From: Candidatus Thorarchaeota archaeon AB_25
GTDB lineage: Archaea > Asgardarchaeota > Thorarchaeia > Thorarchaeales > Thorarchaeaceae
Length of the DNA stretch: 64,000 nt
Assembly: GCA_001940705.1 (NCBI GenBank)
Contig: MEHG01000002.1
Span: forward strand, 1 to 64,000
Reading direction: 5' to 3'
Part shown: in pieces, positions 44,803-46,217 of the stretch
Numbering within the stretch: position 1 is the stretch's first letter
How the letters are laid out: each line of letters opens with the position of its first letter
The notes under the pieces: model-generated
What the model was told of the DNA's origin: nothing
The model's input: the letters and a program-made list of their open reading frames with translations, nothing else
Databases searched by the model: none
Program-made: the position numbers and the translations under genes

Positions 44803-45219
44803 CTACCCTCTGGGTGGTCGAGGTAATCCCTTCATTGTTTCAATATCTTCAATCCACTTTGTCAACTCGTTGTTGATTCCATTTATGTATTCCAAGAGGA
44901 CCTGTTGATATTTTCGTAAATGCTGCTGCTCTAGTTTCTTCGACTTCGTAAGGAAATCTTTTGACCGTCTTGGAAAACCAGTTGACCAACGTCGAAGATT
45001 GAGCTCAGCCTTTCGATCCTCAAGTACCTTTTTGGCCAAGCGAATAGTGCGACGTTTAGTAAGGAGGTCTTCAAGCAACTTTTGTAGTGTAATTGTGGCT
45101 GCAACAAGCTCCTTTGCATCGAATTTTGTATCCTGATTTCGTGCGGTGTAGTAGACACGCTTGAGGTCTCTTTTAGCTGTCATCACATGTGTCAGGAGTC
45201 TTGTCAATGAATGAACCAT
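44803..45219 (-). CDS. Helical, basic coiled-coil protein of unknown function
   Basis: A 138-residue protein predicted to be almost all helix, with many Lys, Arg and Leu in heptad-like spacing and a Pro/Arg tail (GLPRPPRG). No hydrophobic segment. Convergent with the release factor, 15 bases apart. No family recognised. Confidence 0.55.
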   Translation of the reverse strand: MVHSLTRLLTHVMTAKRDLKRVYYTARNQDTKFDAKELVAATITLQKLLEDLLTKRRTIRLAKKVLEDRKAELNLRRWSTGFPRRSKDFLTKSKKLEQQHLRKYQQVLLEYINGINNELTKWIEDIETMKGLPRPPRG

Positions 45220-45283: not shown

Positions 45284-45943
45284 TCAGACTAGGGAGTAAT
45301 TACATCTGTCCTTGCTATACGGACAAACTCTGCAGTTACGTTGTTCCTGAGTAGGTCTAGGCCGTTTTCCATTGTACCAGACTTCATCCAGTCTTCCTAA
45401 CTTTCTGAGCACATTCTTTGGTTTGAATCGAGTCACGTATGTTTTACCACCACTACATCGCCAACATTCTTTGGTTGATTTCTTGTCAAGGCATCTTTTT
45501 GCCTTATCTTGTAAACAGTAGACCGTTACAAGCCTTGTTGATGAACATGAAATACCACTCTCAAGAAGTGCCAGTGCATAGAGACCTGATTGAAAGACAT
45601 CCTCTGGATTTGCCTGTTTTGGCAGATGCTTCAAAGGAAACTTGTACTCAATGACAAGGTCCAATATCGGTGTTTTTTCATGGTGGAGAATCGCTCCATC
45701 AAGTCTTCCAACAAACCTGTGACCTAAGGACCTAACGTTCTCTTCGGAGAAGAAGTAAAACTGATTGACCTTCCATCGATTAGGCCTCTCCTTGAGAAAT
45801 TCTGATAAGCTCCATGGAGCTGGAATCGCTCGCCTCATCTTCATTCCAGTTGTAGCAAAACCTGTTCTTGGCTGTAGTGCAAGAAGAAGAATAACTCCAG
45901 CGATGAACACTACCATCATGATCAGACTAGCCAAACCACTCAT
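45284..45943 (-). CDS. Cas4-like PD-(D/E)XK nuclease, C-terminal half, membrane-anchored
   Basis: About 219 residues from the ATG at 45943, with an alternative ATG at 45976. One membrane helix (about 2-22) opens the protein. The nuclease core follows: Asp82 in GRLDG, Glu99-Tyr-Lys101 in DLVIEYKF and Gln118 in FQSGLYALAL, the standard PD-(D/E)XK order. Three Cys (204, 207, 214) in CRVCPYSKDRC form the C-terminal part of a Cas4-type iron-sulfur site. The first Cys and the leading His of this fold are missing here but are present in the gene directly upstream. Confidence 0.7.
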   Translation of the reverse strand: MSGLASLIMMVVFIAGVILLLALQPRTGFATTGMKMRRAIPAPWSLSEFLKERPNRWKVNQFYFFSEENVRSLGHRFVGRLDGAILHHEKTPILDLVIEYKFPLKHLPKQANPEDVFQSGLYALALLESGISCSSTRLVTVYCLQDKAKRCLDKKSTKECWRCSGGKTYVTRFKPKNVLRKLGRLDEVWYNGKRPRPTQEQRNCRVCPYSKDRCNYSLV

Positions 45944-45947
45944 CCAA

Positions 45948-46217
45948 TCACCACAAAATCCACAAGACCCCTGCAATCAGGGTCAGGATTATTATCAGCA
46001 TGGGTGCAATCCGGCTCTCTGTCTTCCCTGTATATTGACTATCTGATTGGATTGACACACGCCGATGCAACTCTGTCCCAGTGACACTAGCTGGAGAGTG
46101 TGAATCTCCAAATTTGTGCCTGAGATGCAGTCGATACTCGCACTGGAACTGTGTTCTCAATTCCGATACTTCACGCATCTTGTGAAATGGTTCTTTTTCA
46201 GCCTCGGTCAGTCTCAT
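45948..46217 (-). CDS. Cas4-like nuclease, N-terminal half, with C-terminal membrane helix
   Basis: An 89-residue protein. VSELRTQFQCEYRLHLRHKF and the GTELHRRV segment match the N-terminal part of Cas4/RecB-type nucleases: Cys26 is the first cluster ligand and His51 the first active-site residue. It then runs into one membrane helix (about 71-89) and stops. The next gene starts four bases later and carries the rest of the fold after its own membrane helix. No CRISPR array or cas gene is in the window, so this is not evidence of CRISPR adaptation. Confidence 0.65.
   Translation of the reverse strand: MRLTEAEKEPFHKMREVSELRTQFQCEYRLHLRHKFGDSHSPASVTGTELHRRVSIQSDSQYTGKTESRIAPMLIIILTLIAGVLWILW

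Follow-up and report, generated by a model that had tools for sequence, protein, structure and literature searches.

A conserved gene pair of Thorarchaeota predicted to encode a Cas4/Exo5-type nuclease as two membrane-anchored halves

Gene pair, motifs and membrane helices

Two adjacent genes on the minus strand of a Thorarchaeota contig raise the question of whether one nuclease can be divided between two membrane proteins. They lie in a stretch of 64,000 nucleotides from Candidatus Thorarchaeota archaeon AB_25 (contig MEHG01000002.1; hereafter the window) and were originally predicted, from the sequence alone, to encode a membrane-anchored Cas4-like nuclease in two pieces. We refer to the upstream gene as UP and to the downstream gene as DOWN. 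Both frames, their lengths, the gap of four bases between the TGA of UP and the start of DOWN, and every residue named in the original prediction were matched exactly on recheck; its residue list had, however, omitted a second invariant set of four cysteines in DOWN (143, 151, 160, 163). The pair contains the following elements.

46140..46142, minus strand: UP Cys26, predicted first Fe-S cluster ligand (codon checked; invariant)
46065..46067, minus strand: UP His51 of Gly-x-x-Leu-His, RecB/Cas4 motif I (invariant)
45954..46010, minus strand: UP transmembrane helix, residues 70-88 (from hydropathy and Lys/Arg bias; C terminus predicted outside)
45948..46217, minus strand: UP subunit gene, 89 aa (UP profile A2; matches in 38 of the 47 genomes of the family), with the N-terminal helical part of a Cas4-type fold, the first cluster cysteine, GxxLH and a C-terminal transmembrane helix
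45947..45952, minus strand: GGTGAT, Shine-Dalgarno-like, overlapping the UP stop codon and three bases before the ATG of DOWN
45284..45943, minus strand: DOWN subunit gene, 219 aa (PADLOC Cas4 profile; AF2 model), with an N-terminal transmembrane helix, the PD-(D/E)XK catalytic core, the extra four-Cys insert and a C-terminal CxxC...C
45878..45934, minus strand: DOWN transmembrane helix, residues 4-22 (from Lys/Arg bias; N terminus predicted outside)
45698..45700, minus strand: DOWN Asp82 of GRxD, motif II (invariant)
45641..45649, minus strand: DOWN Glu99-x-Lys101, motif III (invariant)
45578..45592, minus strand: DOWN Gln118-xxx-Tyr122, QxxxY motif (invariant)
45455..45517, minus strand: DOWN Cys143-x7-Cys151-x8-Cys160-xx-Cys163, candidate second metal site (invariant in 27 rows)
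45302..45334, minus strand: DOWN Cys204/207/214, predicted other three Fe-S cluster ligands (invariant)

The motifs of RecB-like PD-(D/E)XK nucleases occur in order and are divided between the two products, with GxxLH in UP and GRxD, ExK and QxxxY in DOWN. The 1+3 cysteine pattern of Cas4, whose metal binding is predicted only, is likewise made up from both, by Cys26 of UP and Cys204, Cys207 and Cys214 of DOWN. Cys26, Gly47, Leu50 and His51 of UP are invariant in 22 aligned rows. The same is true of Cys204/207/214 of DOWN in a 22-row alignment, and Glu67, Gly79, Asp82, Glu99, Lys101, Gln118 and Tyr122 of DOWN are invariant among 22-27 relatives. Wherever dN/dS was calculable, it was 0.06-0.21 for both genes, indicating purifying selection. 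Judged from the sequences, the pair's residues and reading frames are far beyond chance. In the model of the window DOWN, the extra four-Cys insert sits between two core strands; it could bind zinc and is a testable candidate for a second metal site.

We also assessed the orientation of the two membrane helices. Summed over relatives, Lys and Arg residues beside the UP helix number 59 on the N side and 3 on the C side, and those beside the DOWN helix 3 on the N side and 93 on the C side. According to the positive-inside rule, this bias places both soluble parts in the cytosol, with the two helices forming a hairpin from two chains. The hairpin of the original prediction, with both halves on the same side of the membrane, is thus supported.

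Relationship to nuclease families and predicted fold

A Pfam search with UP or DOWN singly gave no match. The window DOWN matches a PADLOC Cas4 profile (3.9e-6), and a PADLOC Cas4 profile is colinear over a spliced window pair, in which the soluble part of UP was placed before DOWN, at residues 14-242 and hence across both halves. Splicing also improved the best E values, from 2.7e-4 for DOWN alone to 3.7e-6 with Pfam PDDEXK_1 and from 6.8e-6 to 1.5e-7 with the Cas4 profile TIGR00372, in a comparison between member sets that overlap and are not identical. The best Pfam match of the joined proteins was pfam12705, reached by 8 of 18 members (best 3.7e-6). Pfam Exo5 was weakly reached by four of the 18 (best E 0.0065), the window pair not being among them, and Exo5 was the only plausible sequence-level match among solved structures (DOWN profile, E 0.001).

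The window pair scores 16.8 bits with TIGR00372 against a curated cut-off of 65, and no PF01930 match was listed for it. UP alone gave one weak match to Cas4g/Cas1g (E 0.14) and none to any other Cas4 profile. When compared by hhalign, with small alignments in both cases, the probability was 2.7 against five Thorarchaeota Cas4 proteins and 87 against four Exo5-like Asgard proteins, in the latter case over the C-terminal part only. The original term "Cas4-like" stands in the sense of a RecB-like PD-(D/E)XK nuclease of the Cas4/Exo5/MGME1 type, but not in that of a CRISPR-linked protein above the curated Cas4 cut-off.

For structure prediction, a joined chain was taken from the locus L054, where UP and DOWN lie in one frame and were read through the single TGA between them. 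L054 is divergent, its DOWN being 38% identical to that of the window. Alignment A5, in which UP membrane helices align to DOWN helix columns, was used for modelling; A6 and A7 were left out because their UP rows were misplaced. The joined chain, whose input rows for UP and DOWN were unpaired and whose linkage forces the two parts into proximity, reached a pLDDT of 80 and a pTM of 0.76, with local pLDDT values of 51-85 in the UP blocks and 41-53 in the C-terminal Cys region. In VIA-align, its top rows were Cas4, MGME1, DinG nuclease, Exo5 and AdnA (Z 8.7-11.7). The match to Cas4 7mi4 (Geobacter Cas4-Cas1) had a Z of 11.7 and an rmsd of 6.7 (152 aligned, chain 5-181), that to MGME1 a Z of 10.8 (residues 119-336) and that to Exo5 a Z of 9.6; in all three the model range covers both halves.

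The window DOWN modelled alone (pLDDT 81.5; Z up to 10.6) was still recognised as a RecB-like core. However, the match to Cas4 7mi4 began only at residue 54, and that to MGME1 at 211, no longer at 119. As DOWN alone misses the N-terminal part of Cas4 and MGME1 that the joined chain covers, UP appears to fill the missing part. Predicted structures that keep the halves apart had been named as a refutation in the original prediction; the joined chain of L054 instead folds as one RecB-like nuclease, in which UP matches what DOWN lacks. Taken together, the complementary invariant residues, the better profile matches of the spliced pair and the joined fold lead us to read UP and DOWN as one enzyme.

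Distribution, common fate and surroundings of the pair

The DOWN profile matches 38 of the 47 genomes of the window's family (Thorarchaeota, Asgard), in 37 of them as a full or near-full protein and in one (G007) as a stub; outside the family it matches three other proteins in the phylum, weakly. With a joined UP+DOWN profile, a UP match was detected in all 37 genomes that have a full or near-full DOWN, plus a truncated UP in G018. Hence, no intact half was found alone, DOWN being accompanied by a UP match in each of these 37 of the family's 47 genomes. The split is present across the genera of the family, at one conserved chromosomal position. A scan of public genome contigs gave no match with a single protein and 26 loci with a profile.

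Relatives in which the two halves form a single uninterrupted gene would speak against the split. None was found in the family, and no fused membrane relative was retrieved with the joined profile from 227 genomes of the phylum. The candidates fetched in this search were one-piece Cas4/Exo5-like proteins, which are distant and lie elsewhere in the phylum; judged by eye, ten such Asgard proteins have neither the membrane hairpin nor the extra four-Cys motif. Another Asgard family, f22 (L090, L091, L092, L098), has conserved one-piece Cas4/Exo5-like proteins of 312-323 aa with a Cys + GxxxH pattern and a long insert, which are possibly archaeal relatives of Exo5. Two further proteins of 548-560 aa (L096, L097) carry, by eye, an N-terminal Cas4-like domain, and their C-terminal region, also read by eye, may be a nucleotidyltransferase-like domain.

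The two genes also share their fate where the pair is incomplete or absent. In G025 and G035 (genus g11) both are absent and both flanking genes are kept; the phylogeny of their eRF1-like neighbour does not tell loss from original absence in this genus. In G007, UP is gone and DOWN is reduced to its last 22 residues, and G018 has a truncated UP and no DOWN. Mirror-tree analysis of 18 loci gave a correlation of 0.87 between UP and DOWN distances (pairs of loci not being independent, nominal p-values are unreliable here) and a partial correlation of 0.67 after removal of three neighbouring genes; the partial correlations with the next gene were 0.26 for UP and 0.15 for DOWN. In two genomes of genus g4 (L045, L043), a TnpB-type insertion lies inside UP and DOWN stays open, so that these genomes can dispense with the system and may be losing it. 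The regions concerned are L045:225-8608 and L043:1-384, and the TnpB-type gene encodes 723 aa in L045. In L045, a reverse-strand protein of 1788 aa, long relatives of which occur in L037 and L038, lies beside this gene, and the membrane helix of UP is separated from its soluble part.

Could DOWN be a nuclease by itself, with UP as a separate small membrane protein, a regulator or an anchor, and motif I and the first cysteine dispensable? The recognisable RecB-like core of DOWN, the lack of a clear family for UP by itself and the L045 locus, in which the insertion has cost UP its membrane helix and left DOWN intact, would all be compatible with this. Nevertheless, we consider it unlikely, since the very Cys and GxxLH absent from DOWN are retained in UP and invariant over 22 rows, the helices of UP match the N-terminal part of Cas4 for which DOWN has no counterpart, and the two proteins co-evolve and are found together. 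Given the conserved split, the invariant catalytic residues, the common inheritance and the predicted common fold, we favor, with a probability of about 0.73, the reading that UP and DOWN are obligate subunits of one RecB-like DNA nuclease of the Cas4/Exo5/MGME1 type that is membrane-tethered, cytosol-facing and CRISPR-independent.

The boundary between the genes was then compared among relatives. A script placed UP in a frame of its own before DOWN in 28 of 30 loci, and reading by eye added a 29th; an insertion cuts the remaining locus, L016. A stop codon separates the two in all 29 adjacent pairs inspected. Relative to UP, the frame of DOWN is +1, +2 or 0, and in the window the two frames are one base apart. 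A GGTGA that overlaps the stop of UP and closely precedes the start of DOWN is present in 20 of 28 loci, which points to an own, coupled initiation of DOWN. Programmed frameshifting or readthrough of the stop might instead yield a single chain, in favor of which two genomes have both genes in one frame, separated by a single TGA. Such synthesis as one chain is very improbable, as the relative frame varies and DOWN usually has its own start preceded by GGTGA.

We also inspected the genomic surroundings. In the window, genes for a CpXC protein, a VTT protein and a 140 aa protein diverge from UP, DOWN and a gene for a 138 aa protein, followed by genes for an eRF1-like protein, PheS, PheT and a small GTPase.

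44803..45219, minus strand: downstream helical protein, 138 aa, conserved neighbour

Apart from local gaps, 26 other loci share this gene order, and the locus is thus part of the core chromosome with housekeeping neighbours and not a defence island. The 138 aa helical protein was considered as a third subunit, but this is not supported, as it is kept in the four genomes that lack an intact nuclease (G025, G035, G007 and G018). The divergent 140 aa protein (window:46346-46768) is AbrB/ACT-like by eye and has no Pfam match; its distances and those of the 138 aa protein, which flank the pair on either side, correlate at 0.89, and the two may work together. The eRF1-like protein (364 aa, window:43693-44787) has all three eRF1 domains in Pfam and is present in 25 of 27 loci compared.

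The weak but consistent matches to Cas4 profiles might also be explained by a CRISPR or mobile-element Cas4 that lies here by chance. The conserved neighbourhood argues against this, as does the distribution of Cas1, which occurs in just 11 of the 47 family genomes (PF01930 Cas4 in 12 of 47); neither was detected in the window genome, which is 85% complete. Moreover, ordinary one-piece Cas4 exists separately from the pair in the family, several copies adjoining Cas1, and searches of IMG/VR, phages and plasmids, at the sensitivity applied, gave no copy of UP-DOWN. A Cas4 of this origin is likewise very improbable, and the original remark that no CRISPR genes are near agrees with the housekeeping surroundings. 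Finally, an error in sequencing or assembly that interrupts a single gene (suspected at 45940-45980), or a decaying pseudogene, would produce the one-base difference between the window frames, but is of negligible probability: the break recurs in 29 loci from independent assemblies and in all three relative frames, which rules out both a local error and a conserved frameshift, the Shine-Dalgarno-like site is conserved, and dN/dS is low.

Proposed mechanism and comparison with known systems

From these results we infer how UP and DOWN might assemble in the cell, which metal they would bind and how they would act as a nuclease. UP would insert into the membrane first. DOWN, made from its own start by translation coupled to that of UP, would insert beside it, and the two transmembrane helices would pair side by side as a hairpin of two chains. 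Two N-terminal helices, with the histidine of motif I and the first of the cluster cysteines, would come from UP. DOWN would contribute the core beta sheet with the other three of these cysteines and with Asp, Glu-x-Lys and Gln/Tyr. The cytosolic parts would then close into one nuclease, whose active site and cluster form only where UP and DOWN meet; the four-Cys cluster, ligated from both chains, would probably be [4Fe-4S].

Such an enzyme would most likely cut or trim DNA at the inner face of the membrane, for example incoming or broken DNA, and by analogy with its family its substrate is probably ended or single-stranded DNA. Its cellular role is a guess: destruction of DNA on its entry or breakage at the membrane would fit the location most simply, and repair is equally plausible given the housekeeping neighbours. 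It is also conceivable, with the odds somewhat against it, that the nuclease is licensed by assembly in the membrane, with site and Fe-S cluster present only at the interface, and serves this Asgard lineage, on the inner side of the membrane, as a CRISPR-independent barrier to DNA or as a processor of DNA ends. If so, the division into two chains would keep nuclease activity at the membrane, each half being inactive alone.

Cas4-like nucleases of the pfam12705 type outside CRISPR resemble UP-DOWN in being CRISPR-independent; they have been described as single proteins or helicase fusions (PMC5704561). The same phylogenomic study of Cas4 contains neither the word split nor the word transmembrane (PMC5704561). 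A split or membrane-bound Cas4 was not found in the literature searched, in which coverage of subscription journals was limited, in line with the original statement that such enzymes were not known. As far as the sequences tell, the parts are known, namely a RecB-like nuclease and the Cas4 cysteine pattern, and it is the two-gene membrane arrangement for which we found no description.

If our reading is true, UP-DOWN is a natural split nuclease in which the break in a Cas4-type domain falls precisely between motifs I and II, each half has its own membrane anchor and a predicted Fe-S cluster bridges two chains. This would be one way for a cell to restrict a potentially harmful nuclease to the membrane. 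It would also extend the Cas4/Exo5 type by a branch that is independent of CRISPR in the Asgard archaea, to which eukaryotes are most closely related, and provide a ready split-enzyme scaffold.

Among known systems, RmuC-type proteins are membrane-anchored PD-(D/E)XK proteins with a predicted nuclease domain behind one membrane helix; they are single chains and are not known to carry the Cas4-type cysteine cluster. Their likeness to UP-DOWN is a possible lead. MGME1 has the RecB-like exonuclease fold (Z 10.8), and is a mitochondrial, single-chain protein that is not known to carry the four-Cys cluster. Exonuclease V (Exo5), a Cas4-like Fe-S exonuclease, shares the fold (Z 9.6), but is one soluble chain. 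Cas4 (type I-C Cas4, Geobacter Cas4-Cas1, SSO0001, Pcal_0546) shares with UP-DOWN the fold, the order GxxH, GRxD, ExK and QxxxY, and the 1+3 cysteines. However, Cas4 is one soluble chain that usually adjoins cas1/cas2, whereas UP-DOWN consists of two membrane proteins with no CRISPR link, an extra four-Cys insert and a Cas4 score below the cut-off.
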